Assembly (NCBI RefSeq): GCF_964204645.1
Contig: NC_134027.1
Location: 2,778,485 to 2,842,484 of the forward strand
From: Tubulanus polymorphus
Lineage: Eukaryota > Nemertea > Palaeonemertea > Tubulaniformes > Tubulanidae
Reading direction: 5' to 3'
DNA length: 64,000 nucleotides
Below are positions 46,066 through 63,507 of this stretch, piece after piece. A program made the translations under genes and the position numbers. Under the pieces are notes generated by a model, which saw only the letters and a list, made by a program, of their open reading frames with translations, was not told where the DNA came from and ran no database searches. The number at the start of each line of letters is the position of its first letter. Position 1 is the first letter of the stretch.

Positions 46066-46257
46066 TCAATCGACAAACCACGCCGCAGAGCAATATTTCT
46101 CCAAAACTTGTCTAACTACGTATTTTTCGAATCTTCTTTGTAGGCAATAACGTAGTCTTTCTACTTTTCCAGCTTTTATCATAGACTTACATATATCAGA
46201 TGTATATCTTTCGACAAAGTATGCAGTTAAAGCTTGAAATAAGACTCTACCTTTCAT
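46066..46257 (-). CDS. Small ORF kept open in one duplicate copy
   Basis: The 63-codon ORF begins with ATG in a fair context (AAGATGA) directly after two in-frame stops and ends with TGA just outside the repeat. It encodes a basic helical peptide containing KAGKVERLRYCLQRRFEKY. Copy 2 of the duplication carries three stops in the same frame. There is no recognised domain, promoter or splice signal, so function is unproven. Confidence 0.2.
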   Translation of the reverse strand: MKGRVLFQALTAYFVERYTSDICKSMIKAGKVERLRYCLQRRFEKYVVRQVLEKYCSAAWFVD

Positions 46258-46541
46258 CTTATTATTAAGAGTTTTCTAACTTGTCAGAAGCGATGGGGCA
46301 TTTCGTTAGATTGTATTTTTTCTCCAAAACTTATCTAACTACTTATTTTTCGAATCTTTTTTGTAGGCAATAACGTAGTCTTTCTACTTTTCCAGCTTTT
46401 ATCATAGAATTACATATATCAGACATATATCTTTCGACAAAGTATGCAGTTTAAGCTTGAAATAAGACTCTACCTTTCATCTTATAATTAAGAGTTTTCT
46501 AACTTGTCAGAAGCGATGGGGCATTTCATTAGATTGTATTA
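46095..46541 (-). repeat. 223-bp tandem duplication
   Basis: Two head-to-tail copies (about 46,095-46,317 and 46,318-46,541) differ at only about ten positions. On the minus strand, copy 1 contains an intact ATG ORF of 63 codons (46,066-46,257; MKGRVLFQALTAYFVERYTS at its start). The same frame in copy 2 is broken by three TAA codons. The predicted peptide is helical and very basic, with no known family. Confidence 0.85.
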
Positions 46542-51244: not shown

Positions 51245-54200
51245 TCATAATTGAATTTTATGACGATCAATTATTTTTTCCTGTACATAATGTTCCAATT
51301 CGGCGGCTGGTAATTCTTCTAACAGTTGACCTTCATCGGATGAAATCTGAAATAGATGAGTAGAAAATCATAACCGCGATCACAAGGAGATTATTGGGTC
51401 CGGGTCAAACTGACCGAGACCAGACAAAAATTAAATTTGGCCCATGCGGAATTAGAATTCATACGTAAATCACTCATTCACAATGCTATCAAAATGAACT
51501 GTGGCAACTGAGGAGAGTCACTTCCAGACCCAGTTAGGATGACACATGGAATAATTTGACCATGTCTATATTTGGCACAGGCCCGCCCCATTTTGGTAAT
51601 GGTGTGGAAAGTTGGGCCGGGTCTAATCTGGTGGATCAAACACTCATGTGATCAAGACTCTTTATGTGAAACTGTTTGGTTCACAAAATGCAGCGACACT
51701 TAACTCACCACGTGTAAATCATATCCCAATTTCTGTAGATGACGATGTTTTAGTCTAGTATTTGCGAGTGTTATATCTTTATGATTAAAGGCCACTTGAT
51801 GCCATCCCAGGATATCAATTGCTATCCTGTAAGCAGAAAGAAGAAATCCAGTAAAACTCCGAAGCTGAAAATCATTCAATCACACTATTCATCATTTTGC
51901 AACACTAACTTTCGTTTAATTCTAATCGGACGATTACCATTCCTGCAATTATCATCTAATTCAATCCTGAAATTGATAGAACAAAAACTAACATCATTTA
52001 AACCATTCAGAATTCACCTCAAAATTTAAACACATTGATCAAGAAACATAGATGGCATCTGTGTGTAAACAGAGATGACTGTTCTTCAGTGCAACCCCTT
52101 ACAACGAACTTCGACGGACCAGAATATCTGGTTGTTATAACCGATAGTCCGTTTTGTAATCAGTATGAAATTAACTAAATTATCTTAATTTGGGATAAAA
52201 TTCTTATTTTGCAATATCCAATTCGAGTGAATTGAGTGAAAAACTAGCAAAAAAACTGGGGCTCACGTTAAATTTGACATTAACCATATGGGTTTCAAAA
52301 ACTGCTACCCAAATGGTTCAAATAATCACCTGGAAATTTCTGGAATTGTCTGCATGTTTTTAATGAGATCACCCGATATAGAAACGAGTTTCTGATTGTT
52401 TCCTTGACGTCGACCAGTCACAGACGATAACCAATCTATATGCGCGGGCAGATCATCATGACAGTGATAATACTGGATCGGAACAGGTCGATTATCTTCA
52501 TCCAAATGTATCTCAATACCTGAATAATGTGACGATTCAACTTAATCTATTATATAATTTTATACAAATTTAAAGGAGGTTTGAGATCCTTGAAGACATT
52601 TCTTAAACCTTAAGGAATAAACAACGAACCCTGAACCCTAAGATGGTTTTTTACATTAATTACCAGCAGTTAAAATGTGTGGCAGAATAAAGTGACATCG
52701 GACTTTCTCTTCTGCATTGAACAATCGTTTTAATTCACCAAACAGAACATTCATCCCTTTCCGCCGACTTAGTTCGATTGGTAAGTATCCAAAATTATTT
52801 CTGTTACACGTTTGCAAGAAATTCTGAAATAATTCAGATTCGTAAGTATTTTCACTAGGCATCGACATCACAAAAAAAATTATTTCTGTTACGCGTTTGC
52901 AAGAAATTCTAAAATAATTCAGATTCATGAGTATTTTCACTAGGCATCGACATCATAAAATAAAATTATTTCTGTTACACGTTTGCAAGAAATTCTGAAA
53001 TAATTCAGATTCATAAGTATTTTCACTAGGCATCGACATCATAAAATAAAATTATTTCTGTTACACGTTTGCAAGAAATTCTAAAATAATTCAGATTCAT
53101 AAGTATTTTCACTAGGCATCGACATCATAAAATAAAATTATTTCTGTTACACGTTTGCAAGAAATTCTAAAATAATTCAGATTCATAAGTACATGTATTT
53201 TCACTAGGCATCGACATCATAAAATAATCTTAGCGCATACATACTTTTGGTAATAAGAATCCATTATACGATGGATTTTCAATGATCATACAAGAATGCA
53301 GCAGAATCAACTGAAGTTTTTTATCCAAGAATTTTGCAGCTGAAAATAAGGTAAAACGTTTCATATTTTAAAAAGTATTACGAATAAGAATCAGGAAATT
53401 TTTAACTCCACCTACCTGCCAAACGATTCAGAAATGATGAACTGAACAGTTGATTGACTAGATCTACAGGAATAGAGTCTAAGTATGCTAACGCAGTCAG
53501 TGCAGTAACTAAACTCTCCGGAAAGGAATTAAATTCTCCAGCATTAAAACGACGTCTGAGCTGTTCGCAAACCAGATCACACGTAGATCGATCTAATTCC
53601 GAACTGAACAAAGAGTAACCCCATAAATACGAAGCGATATCCTTCGATCTGACTAGTTCAGTATTTGTATCGCGTTCGATTAATCGTTGAAAAACTTTTA
53701 AAGTCGATTCGAGTAAATTTTGATTGTAGATACGTAAAGACGCGTACGATCTCATTAATTCCATAATTCGAGTGAGATTAGTCTCCTTTTCCAAAAGTTT
53801 TTGATTCAATAAATGTGACGCAACTCGTTCGAAAAAGTTCACATTGTGGAATCCAGCGTGTCTGAACACTTTCAGAAACGGAGTCAACTGCATGAGATCA
53901 ATTGTATCCAGTTCATTTAACACTTTCTCAGCGATTCCGTCGAGAAGTTCTTGACTTTTTATACGCGAATTACAGCGAAAAAAGCCATTACAAATTATAT
54001 TCAACTGTTGCAGAGAATATGAAGATAGACATTTGACAATCATTTCTTCGATATAGTTCATTAATTGACCGGATGTTTCTCCGTAGATCATTATATAGAA
54101 CATTAACTGTGGAATTTCCTCCGGTTTATAATCCAATGATTTCCACCGACTGACACATGCGCTTATTAGATGTCGCATGAAATCTACGAATTCGCAATCG

Positions 54201-54790
54201 CATTTATAAAGTACATCGGCAATTTTCAGTAAGCTTTTTGAATCGAATGAATCCACTAGCTGACAGCTGAATTGTTTTAATTCTCGTAAATGACGCCTGT
54301 TCTGCTCCGATCCGCGTAATCGATCGCCATAGAATTGAAGCATTGCTACAACATCTGATTGACACATGCTTCGTAAAAATTCATATTTCTCATCAATTGT
54401 CGCGCGTCTTTCAAATTCAATGATCATATTAGTCGTTTTCATATCTACCATTATTTTAGCACCTTTGCTATTTTTGTAAAAATTGTTCTGCATTGATTGC
54501 GGAGAACAGTTCACCAGATTATAGTGTAAAGCTTTGATCAGTTTATGTGACACTTTTCTACTGTCCTCAACCGCAGAAGAAATATCATTATGATTTTTTA
54601 AGAATACTCTTGCGCCAATCTTCTTTTCTTCTGTATATTCCATTCTTTTTCGACTAGTTGACATTGCAGTTGACGTTGATAACTGCCTGACATAGCGATT
54701 AGATCTCCAATCACAAATGAGTCTGTATATTTGTGGTTTAAATACGGAGGACATCACAAGTTGTGACTTAAGATGGGTAATTTTCAGCAT
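51245..54790 (-). CDS. FAST kinase domain (FASTKD) mitochondrial protein, six exons
   Basis: Joining 53,416-54,790, 53,245-53,339, 52,664-52,823, 52,330-52,519, 51,709-51,826 and 51,245-51,346 gives one frame of 679 codons with GT-AG introns and matching phases. The N-terminus is basic, Ser/Thr-rich and acid-poor (YVRQLSTSTAMSTSRKR near residues 33-49), fitting a mitochondrial targeting peptide. The large first exon has the helical repeats and FAST_1-type region. Exon 2 (FLDKKLQLILLHSCMIIENP) fits FAST_2. Exons 5-6 form the C-terminal RAP domain (LKHRHLQKLGYDLHV, about residues 630-646). Family members act in mitochondrial RNA processing, stability or translation. The length is typical. Which vertebrate paralogue (FASTKD1-5, TBRG4) is closest cannot be settled here. 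A pyrimidine-rich acceptor 6 bp before the ATG shows a 5' UTR intron. It diverges from BLOC1S4. Confidence 0.9.
52793..53226 (-). repeat. Five-copy 86-bp minisatellite over a FASTKD 3' splice site
   Basis: Copies start at about 52,795, 52,880, 52,966, 53,052 and 53,138 (periods 85, 86, 86, 86). They differ at only a few bases, and the last carries a 6-bp insertion. Copy 1 contains the acceptor and first 30 or so bases of FASTKD coding exon 3. Copies 2-5 lie in intron 2 and repeat the same splice-site region, with TTTCAG in copies 1 and 3 and TTTTAG in copies 2, 4 and 5. Confidence 0.95.
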
Positions 54791-55388: not shown

Positions 55389-56349
55389 ATGGAGATCGAA
55401 ACAGTGACAGTTGAAGAAACTGACTCGGATGCTGTCGTTAGTGGCGGCAGCGTGTTCAGCGAACCTGGTGAAAGTGATGTTCAAACTGAGGACACGTTAG
55501 TGAATGAAATGTCTGATGAATATGCCAATTATCTTGACTTTGAAACGCCAAAAGAAGTAAGATAGAAATCATTACAAATTAAATTCAATTAAGTTAGGCC
55601 TATCGTATCGTTGTACGCGACGTTTTCTGTCACGGTTTGTTGTTGCATTGCAGAAAGTGAATTTTGAAGAAAGCATCGAAGATATGTTGACGCGTCTTGA
55701 TGAATACTGTGGCCTTGTCGATATGGTAAGACTTACAAAATTACATGGAAGTTGCACACGATGTTAGTTACACCTTATGTCGACCACATTTCAGATTAGA
55801 AGTGACACCTCCCTTTGTTTGAATAAGAACATGATGGATCTACAACAGAAGAGCATGCGAATGCAACGGATATTTGAAAGGATTGATAAATTAGAGGTGC
55901 CTGAATTGATAAAAGTCCTGTCCTGAAAGGAAGATTTTTAAGGCTCTTGAAACTATATTCTAATCTTCTAGGAATTTGTTGGGCATGTTCGACAAAATGT
56001 AGCGACAATGGAAGATTTGGTAAATAAAGCTGAGGATGAAATGGGAACATTTAGCAATATCAAGAAAATGATCACAAACATAAGTCTACCAACATTTATC
56101 GTAAGTATCTACCCTACTTCAGATAGTGACTGATTATTGTTCAGCGTACATATTTCCAGATCATATGTCTCTGATTCATTTCAGAAAAAGCCCACCCAAA
56201 GCAAACCAAGGTCGGATTCGCGGCCAAAGTTCATTCAGCCAGAAATATTCTGTACTGACGATTATTTCGGTTCTAAGGATCGGGTCGTAAATGAACCGAA
56301 TGAAGAGAGAATTCATATCGCTGCTGAAGTATTTGAGGGAGAGGCCTAG
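55389..56349 (+). CDS. BLOC1S4: BLOC-1 subunit 4 (cappuccino), five exons
   Basis: Exons 55,389-55,556, 55,654-55,725, 55,795-55,896, 55,972-56,100 and 56,185-56,349 are all phase 0 and encode 211 aa, close to the human 217. The N-terminus is acidic and disordered. The conserved core starts near residue 57 and includes MLTRLDEYCGLVDMIRSDTS, shared almost word for word with vertebrate cappuccino. A helical coiled-coil region follows (KLEEFVGHVRQNVATMEDLV), then ISLPTFIKKPT. The protein is a subunit of the cytosolic BLOC-1 complex, which sorts cargo from early endosomes to lysosome-related organelles. The donor of exon 3 (GAG then GTGCCT) is weak but required by homology. The C-terminal tail (about residues 160-211) is divergent. 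Its promoter region is shared with FASTKD. Confidence 0.95.
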
Positions 56350-56617
56350 AGACAAAAATAATTCAATTTTGAAACTTTAAAAGAAATGTTTTATTTTCAT
56401 ATTTTAAGTTTTTGATACACAAATGTGTCGAGTTGAAGTTAGTCCGTTTTTATGGTGCTGATAAAAGTGTCATGATTTCCTGATAATTTACTGGTACATG
56501 ATAATGTATGATATATGTACCGGTATAAGATTGATAAATGTGTAATACTTGTCAAGAAGCCTTGATATATGTGCTATATCTTTTGTAAAAAATCTTAATT
56601 CAAGTTGATTGTTAACG

Positions 56618-57479: not shown

Positions 57480-60057
57480 TCAACCAGTTTGCTTATCATC
57501 TTTCTCGGTTGCGTGCGATTTATCACCATCTTCGTCAGCAGTTTGTTTATCATCCTCTGGAGATGATGCCGATGATATCTTACCCAAAGAGCTCAAAATA
57601 TCTGACATCAATTTCAAGTTATCGACACCTCCAATCAACTGCCTAGAAATATTCCAATTCAATTCATCAAATTGATCGGGTGTCGCTGGATTAACACGCA
57701 GATCTGTTGGATGATGATAGTCACTCATTGTTTTAGATTTTAGTACAATTTTCCATGTATTAAACTCTTGGTTTTTTCACTTACTTGAGAGTTTGTTCGG
57801 CGGTATTTGCTGCTGCGAGGAGTTGTTGAGAAACGTATTTAGTCTGATCGTGAACATCAGCAGAAGCCGGATGACCGGCGCGTAGTATCTCATTCTCGGC
57901 ATTCAAACACGTCAATTCATTCTACGAGATAAGATATTTCTAGTTCTAAAACGCATACCGGGCACCGGTATCTTAATACAAGATAATTGATTGTATTAAA
58001 CTGACCTGCAGAGATTTCATTTCTTGTTTGAGCTTCGTTACTGTATTTTCAGCTTTTACAGCTCTTTGCTACGAAAAAATGAAAATTCAAGTCAAATACC
58101 CGGTATTATCAACAGAATCGTATTCTAAGAGACAGTTATTGTTTGATTTAAACGCACCGTTGAAGTGATCAGATTTGCCTCGACTTGCTGAATCATTGTA
58201 GCCATCGCAGCAGTTTCTTCGGCTTCTTTCGTTTGACTTTTTTCACGGTCTCGCAATAATTCTGCGACTCTGCAAGAATAAAGGAACGGCATCGAAGAAT
58301 TGACCTCCTATTACATACACAACCAAAATCTGTTATAACACCATCATTTTACTGACTTAACACCAACAATTTAACTCAACAATTTTGCTCAATTCAACTT
58401 CATTTCAATAAAGATATCCTTCTTTATAAAGCTGAATTTGCTAATAACGCTAAATAACGACATATTTTTCATTCACCCCAACATCAGCGTTATAAAGCAT
58501 TTTTGCTATAGTCGTGGTTACCTCTGTGATTCCTTCTGGGCAAGTCTTTGATTATCTTCCATTTCTCTCCGTAAATGTTCATTCTCTTCTTGAAGCTGAA
58601 AAGTAGATCAGAGATTTTTCTCTCATTATCAACATTTATGACGCAAGAAACATTTCATTTGAACTTAATCTAAACGTTTAAAAATTACTAACTCTTTTCA
58701 CTTCTTTTCTCTCATTACCAACATTCATAACGGAAGAAACATTTCATTTGAACTTAATCTAAACGTTTAAAAATAACTTACTCTTTTCACTTCTAGCGCT
58801 AAGTTATTATTTGGAGAGACACGAGATGAGTTTGGTCTGGAACTGTGAAGTCTATTCGCGGTAGAAGAATTTGACTGATTAGCACCATCATTATTGTTCA
58901 TATTGCTCAATACACTACTGTCCGTGAGGAAATCGGGAAGAACTCCCGGTGACATACTAACAGCGACCGTATCGTCACCATCGCCGTTCGATAAATTACG
59001 ATTATTAAACCTCGAATCACTTCGAACGAGCGCGTTACCGATAGCGTCGATACTGGGGAAAGATGTCCGATTGTCAGGCGACGATGGTTCGACGGCGCCA
59101 CTGTCTAAAGCGAAGTCCGGCAGCGAAATATCGGATTGAGTTCGACTTCGAGCACTTCTACTACTGACCGTCCGTGGACGACCGTCGTGATTATTGATGT
59201 GATCTTGCACGAAGTCGGGTAGATCGCTAGCGACATCTGGCGCGATGCCAGCGACTCCGTTTACGTAAAATTTTGATCCAGAATGTCCCGGGTTTGAATT
59301 GGCAGCGATGAACTTTTTAAAAGAAAATGGATTTTCATCCTTTTTCTGCGGTTTCTTGCTCTTCTTTTCCACTGAAAACAGAAATTCTTACGATTAAAAA
59401 GATCATACATTTTGTATTTAATGTGGAGTTGAGTAGTTTAAGCCATCTGACATTATTTCTGGCCTCCGCTCAATCCATTCCAGGATTCATGCGAACAAAT
59501 CCTAACAAGTGGAATGATTTTTTCTGGTCGCTTTCCCCTTGACTTGGAACACAGAATCTTTAACCTGCTTATAAAGACCTGAGTGGAGCAGGTTTTGCAA
59601 GTTTGAGTGTGAACCGGCTGAGGGATGAAAAATATTCTTATACAAAGTAAATAGACTTTGAGGCCATGAAACAGACAGGTCAATATGGCACGAACAAGTC
59701 TTACATTAGGACTACACATAGTCTACTAGAGATACATCAACTACATGACATTATTCATCCGTTAGTTGTCATGTTTTAAAAAGTATGATTTTTATCATCA
59801 ATTTTTATATCTGAGGCTGAGCTGAACTTTCCCAGACTATTCTTACCATCGTCGACTATTTTAAGATGTGATCTCTCGCGTTTTGGAGATGGAATATCCG
59901 GTAAATCAAATATATCCACTTCATCTGATGCTGAACTTTCATTCTGATGATTTTTCGTATCGGGGTTTGATTTCTTTTTCACGTAATTTTGGAATGAAAA
60001 TGGATTTTCATCGTCGTCTTTCCTGCCTCCTTCAGCCATATTGACACCTAGCGCCAT
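57480..60057 (-). CDS. ENTR1: ENTR1 (endosome-associated trafficking regulator 1; SDCCAG3), eight exons
   Basis: Exons 59,847-60,057, 58,782-59,371, 58,522-58,595, 58,158-58,269, 58,006-58,068, 57,785-57,921 and 57,480-57,642 join in phase. That is seven coding segments, giving 449 aa; an eighth, non-coding leader exon cannot be excluded. The N-terminal half is Ser/Asn/Asp-rich and disordered with short LPDF motifs. It carries ENPFSF twice (exons 1 and 2). The C-terminal half is coiled coil with the family hallmark QRAVKAENTVTKLKQEMKSL and the end block KQLIGGVDNLKLMSDILSSL, matching the C-terminus of human ENTR1. ENTR1 works with retromer/sorting-nexin and ESCRT partners in endosomal recycling and cytokinesis. 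The first ATG (60,057) is used; a second in-frame ATG follows six codons later. It diverges from RTCB. Confidence 0.93.
58621..58794 (-). repeat. 89-bp tandem duplication across an ENTR1 5' splice site
   Basis: Two head-to-tail copies (about 58,616-58,704 and 58,706-58,794, period 89). The higher-coordinate copy contains the real end of ENTR1 exon 2 and its donor AAAAGA/GTAAGT. The lower copy, inside the intron, has the donor changed to GTTAGT. Extending the exon to that second site would run into a TAA a few codons after the true donor. Confidence 0.9.
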
Positions 60058-60503
60058 CTGGTAATGTTATGACTCAAGTCGCATGAATTGGACTTATGTC
60101 GTATGTCTCACTAGATTTACGATATACGTCACACGTTACGGTTGTGAAGCACCTTTCTCAAGGTCGTTGAGTACTGCTGAAAATTTCTAGTAAATTTTCT
60201 ACTTTTTTCTCAAATCAAAGGTAAATTCATGTAAGATAAGCAAAATAAATTGTGACAGTGAATTCAGTATACTAAAAAAGCTTGCTGGCTTGCCAAATAA
60301 TAATTAGCCTAAAAGAAAAACGGTACTATCGCAATTGTGGTTTTGTTGGGTCCACAAAAAAGGCAAAGCCCAAAGGGCAAAGAAAGACAAAAAATGAAAA
60401 AATTCCCTATCCCCAACCAATAGCCAATATCCTGAAAGTTATTTTTTTCCATTTTTCAGTTCAGTTAGCGGAATACTTTCGCTCCAGTTAATTGGAAAAT
60501 AGA
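60058..60503. promoter_or_regulatory. Divergent ENTR1/RTCB upstream region with RTCB 5' UTR intron
   Basis: The start codons are 446 bp apart. On the plus strand a donor (CAAAG then GTAAATT, exon end 60,220) and a strong acceptor (TTTTTTTCCATTTTTCAG, ending 60,459) outline a 239-bp intron in the RTCB leader. The core promoter is therefore likely within about 60,060-60,180. No TATA box was identified. Confidence 0.5.

Positions 60504-63507
<3,004 letters not shown>

Follow-up and report, generated by a model that had tools for sequence, protein, structure and literature searches.

An 86-bp tandem array over an intron/exon boundary presents a FASTKD-family gene of Tubulanus polymorphus with five potential 3' splice sites

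A gene of the FASTKD family was modelled manually on the minus strand (51246..54790) of a 64,000-nucleotide stretch of Tubulanus polymorphus DNA (contig NC_134027.1; hereafter, the window). Seven coding exons (54790-53416, 53339-53245, 52823-52664, 52519-52330, 51966-51910, 51826-51709 and 51346-51246) are joined across introns that are all GT-AG to give an unbroken frame of 698 amino acids, the exon structure being predicted from the frame, the splice dinucleotides and the encoded domains and not from transcripts. Searches against Pfam returned matches for FAST_1 (27.9 bits, only narrowly over the cut-off of 27.4) and FAST_2 (29.9 bits versus a cut-off of 26.9), the latter covering the full profile (1–89 of 89) at residues 466–557, so that both domains used to assign the protein to the family exceed their thresholds. 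The C-terminal RAP domain, for which the protein was also tested, scores marginally above its cut-off with a partial match (24.3 versus 24.2 bits, profile positions 14–39 of 58). The N-terminus of the protein appears basic, and a paralogue encoded in the same genome (L008) is 26% identical.

The adjoining region on the plus strand contains a small five-exon gene (55400-56350) that resembles a BLOC-1 subunit; the BLOC1_2 match is weak and below the cut-off (E 0.0023), and one of its acceptors apparently ends in TAG. Exons resembling the RNA ligase RtcB were recognized by eye further along the same strand (60492-63295), where one piece was scanned and gave no Pfam match.

Extending over the boundary between intron 2 and exon 3 of the FASTKD-family gene, which is otherwise intact with its seven exons, is a minus-strand tandem array (52791..53227) for which Tandem Repeats Finder (TRF) reports a period of 86, 5.0 copies, 95% matches and a score of 771. 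These are head-to-tail repeats within the 10–100 bp range of a minisatellite or VNTR, and they agree almost to the base with the five 86-bp units, each with an acceptor-like AG, described in the initial annotation. Alignment of the units indicates that each is composed of about 53 nt from the end of the intron, with a branch-like CTNAY, pyrimidines and YAG, followed by the first 33 nt of exon 3, where about 30 had been proposed. On the minus strand the units thus make five YAG/AATTTCTTGCAAACGYGTAACAGAAATAATTTT boundaries, and the 33 nt of exon sequence are common to all units the one exception being a substitution in copy 2. The acceptors differ at the -3 base, with TTTTAG in copies 2, 4 and 5 and TTTCAG in copies 1 and 3, as originally reported. 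At the actual unit junction, the sequences overlap by a microhomology of only 2 nt (TT); a 5-nt AAAAT microhomology was ruled out there.

Pairwise substitutions among the units range from 0 to 5.9%, the upper value being that between copies 1 and 2, where it amounts to five changes over 85 nt and is blurred as an indicator of age by exchange among copies. Only 0–1 substitutions separate copies 3 to 5, copy 1 is 85 nt in length, and copy 5 has a 6-nt insertion. That copies 4 and 5 are distinguished only by this insertion and two edge bases, in a single assembly, might point to an assembly artefact, or to a rare or heterozygous allele of the sequenced individual instead of a fixed feature. We consider this very improbable, as 437 bp is a small span for long-read sequencing and the copies carry private differences that would not be expected from stutter; moreover, a search of the whole 268-Mb genome found no other copies of the array sequence, leaving a single locus with no second locus or haplotig.

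The consequences of using each acceptor can be followed from the donor of intron 2 (GTATGT, 53239..53244 on the minus strand in the manual model), which is common to all five. Exon 2 ends in phase 0. The nearest acceptor is that of copy 5 (53167..53168, exon start 53166), which would define an intron of 78 nt, followed by those of copy 4 (53081..53082, exon start 53080), copy 3 (52995..52996, exon start 52994) and copy 2 (52909..52910, exon start 52908). Splicing to copies 5, 4 or 3 reads NFLQTCNRNNFIL, that is 13 codons and then TGA, and splicing to copy 2 reads NFLQTRNRNNFFCDVDA, 17 codons and then TAG. The acceptor of copy 1 is the farthest, with an exon start at 52823 and an intron of 421 nt; it alone keeps the frame, with exon 3 then occupying 52664..52823. 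The earlier claims that the upstream acceptors lead to stops and that only the copy adjoining the rest of the exon gives a full-length protein are therefore both upheld, the latter with 698 residues. Inclusion of individual units as cassette exons was ruled out, since the unit contains no good donor and the frames fail.

The assignment of the copy 1 acceptor is well supported by the coding counterparts that residues at the start of exon 3 have in L008. Across the exon 2/3 region, the paralogue reads LLPEDMLVQIQ/DHANINSLKLP, versus LLPK/NFLQTCNRNNFGYLP in the FASTKD-family gene. The junction, at residue 490/491, is spanned by the FAST_2 domain, and all domains are intact only with copy 1; the truncated product predicted for copies 3 to 5 keeps FAST_1 and has no Pfam match for FAST_2 or RAP. 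A stop codon lying well ahead of an exon junction directs an mRNA to nonsense-mediated decay (NMD). Measured upstream from the exon 3/4 junction, the stops of copies 5, 4, 3 and 2 are at distances of 461, 375, 289 and 191 nt, in each case more than the roughly 50 nt that characterizes poison splicing, and mRNA spliced to these decoys should accordingly trigger NMD.

The array, its junction motifs, the frames, the stops and the intact domains can be read directly from the DNA; from them we infer how the array arose, which acceptors are chosen, the involvement of NMD and the lack of an adaptive role. In the simplest history, the gene would at first have had just one intron of about 78 nt at this position. 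Its entire 3' splice site, from the branch-like site and pyrimidines through the AG to the first bases of the exon, would have been copied by a local tandem duplication with breakpoints in intron 2 and 33 nt into exon 3; the array would subsequently have grown to five copies by unequal exchange or slippage. Because the duplication crossed the splice boundary, the productive acceptor would have been shifted to the far end. The 78-nt intron defined by copy 5 is close in length to intron 1 (76 nt) and intron 5 (83 nt) and is probably the ancestral one. The 5.9% divergence of copies 1 and 2, together with the intact reading frame, suggests that the gene's tolerance of the array is probably not recent.

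A second duplication of this kind lies about 5.5 kb away in the window and argues for a mutational process behind the array. An 89-bp repeat in two copies (58616-58794, minus strand; 83 of 89 positions identical) has duplicated the last bases of an exon and the adjoining 5' splice site in another gene, making it the mirror image of the FASTKD case. With donor A (GTAAGT, exon end 58782) the frame stays open across the junction, reading ...LALEVKR/LQEENEHLR, and with donor B, the downstream copy (GTTAGT, exon end 58693), it would meet a stop after a few codons. The encoded protein has an NPFSFK motif and is perhaps ENTR1-like, for which Pfam gave no confirmation. Roughly a dozen arrays with a period of at least 25 were found in 264 kb (the window and the next 200 kb), and no clear crossing of an exon edge was seen besides the two in the window, the genes in the next 200 kb being unannotated. 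Elsewhere, a 223-bp tandem duplication in two copies with 95% matches (46096-46540) is clear of any long open frame, and a 58-bp repeat of about 27 copies is located in the 200 kb past the window (bases about 6281-7824 of L021, G000:C3:2902485-2912484).

Precedents for the choice between duplicated acceptors are opposed. Where 3' sites compete, the upstream, intron-proximal site tends to win (Reed and Maniatis 1986, as described in PMC9225289), a rule that would favour copy 5. Duplicated beta-globin 3' sites followed by 14, 55 or 205 nt of exon were instead spliced exclusively to the distal site (PMC5389562). As the 33 nt of exon in each copy falls inside the 14–205 nt range, and a preference for the proximal site has also been reported, the outcome of splicing in the FASTKD-family gene is not predictable from these experiments. 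Exon 3 contains purine tracts (GGAAAGGGA and AGAAGAGAAAG) past the repeat that are not found in the repeat unit, and these could favour the copy 1 acceptor. A near-perfect inverted repeat (TCTGAA-TTAT-TTCAGA) holds each acceptor, and the corresponding hairpin (UCUGAA-UUAU-UUCAGA) can cover the AG. The pairing is slightly stronger in both of the CAG copies, 1 and 3, so that the hairpin does not explain a preference for copy 1 and was ruled out as its cause.

It is conceivable, though unlikely, that the decoys are silent, with exon definition, through the enhancers and donor of exon 3, and the shortness of the 33-nt exon pieces leaving copy 1 as the sole functional site and the array serving simply as intron. 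The confinement of the purine tracts to the true exon 3, the exclusive use of the distal beta-globin site and the intactness of the gene despite moderate divergence of the array would all fit such silence. However, copy 5 retains the geometry of a short, 78-nt intron together with near-identical splicing signals, and is the copy expected to be used under the proximity rule. The UAG at three of the four decoys is also not disqualifying here, as acceptors ending in TAG are apparently in use in both L008 and a neighbouring gene. Opposing precedents, purine tracts restricted to the true exon 3 and apparently usable UAG acceptors together favour partial mis-splicing with sufficient productive mRNA. 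The near-equal 3' sites would compete for their one common donor; some pre-mRNA would be spliced to an upstream copy and then lost, probably by NMD, and enough would be spliced to copy 1, aided by the remainder of exon 3 and the donor that follows it. This productive share would keep the gene functional despite the partial mis-splicing.

The initial annotation had proposed that a length-variable set of decoys could tune the level of productive FASTKD mRNA through NMD, which as a function maintained by selection appears improbable. The position of the stops is as this proposal expects, since all four decoys yield an early stop at a distance compatible with NMD. Such stops require no selection, however, because they would result from nearly any insertion of 86 nt of intron-derived sequence, a length not divisible by 3. 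Tuning itself is not borne out by the units, in which the decoy signals are not better conserved than other positions; of the five substitution sites in the aligned copies, three fall within the stretch of about 20 nt that holds the branch and acceptor. We would give very little credence to the further possibility that array length is a selected, evolvable dial on the productive fraction of FASTKD mRNA, and as such a natural allelic series. The preferred explanation, which we regard as probable, is that duplication across a splice boundary generated five competing acceptors and that the array is a bystander tolerated by the gene rather than an evolved regulator.

The nearest natural analogue of the FASTKD array is the VNTR in intron 18 of human ABCA7, where every repeat unit begins with a splice donor and a premature stop results if one unit is retained (PMC5954066). 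Both are exon-adjoining minisatellites that provide a splice-site dinucleotide in every unit, the use of which retains repeat sequence and leads to a premature stop. The ABCA7 repeat acts on the donor side, has 25-bp units in at least 12 copies, is polymorphic and has been measured in RNA, whereas the FASTKD array lies on the acceptor side and has five copies of an 86-bp unit with 33 nt of exon. The duplicated 3' splice-site minigenes (Reed and Maniatis 1986, described in PMC9225289 and PMC5389562) similarly place an entire 3' site and a short exon piece upstream of the real one, but they are artificial two-copy beta-globin constructs, in contrast to five natural copies with 33 nt of exon each. 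NAGNAG acceptors are likewise alternative 3' splice sites in tandem; they are only 3 nt apart, whereas the FASTKD acceptors are separated by about 86 nt, have a branch-like site each, and are out of frame or stopped. Literature searches for FASTKD together with NMD splicing, and for repeats bearing several acceptors, returned no paper on such a case.

Tandem duplication is recognized as one way in which introns are gained (PMC3443670, PMC2891723), a process in which NMD is a possible buffer (PMC2809761). The FASTKD array resembles these events in that a short duplication alters the exon–intron structure, but here the existing intron 2 has been lengthened and its acceptor multiplied, with no new intron: the units contain no GTRAGT donor, such that a duplicated AGGT does not create an intron between copies. 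The neighbouring donor duplication suggests that introns may recurrently lengthen through short tandem duplications that span a splice boundary. With five near-identical sites, one donor and the productive site the farthest, the array is a natural counterpart of the classical duplicated-3'-splice-site experiment. RNA reads at this locus would show how the choice among nearly equal acceptors depends on proximity and exon context, and would also reveal how much mis-splicing a gene tolerates.
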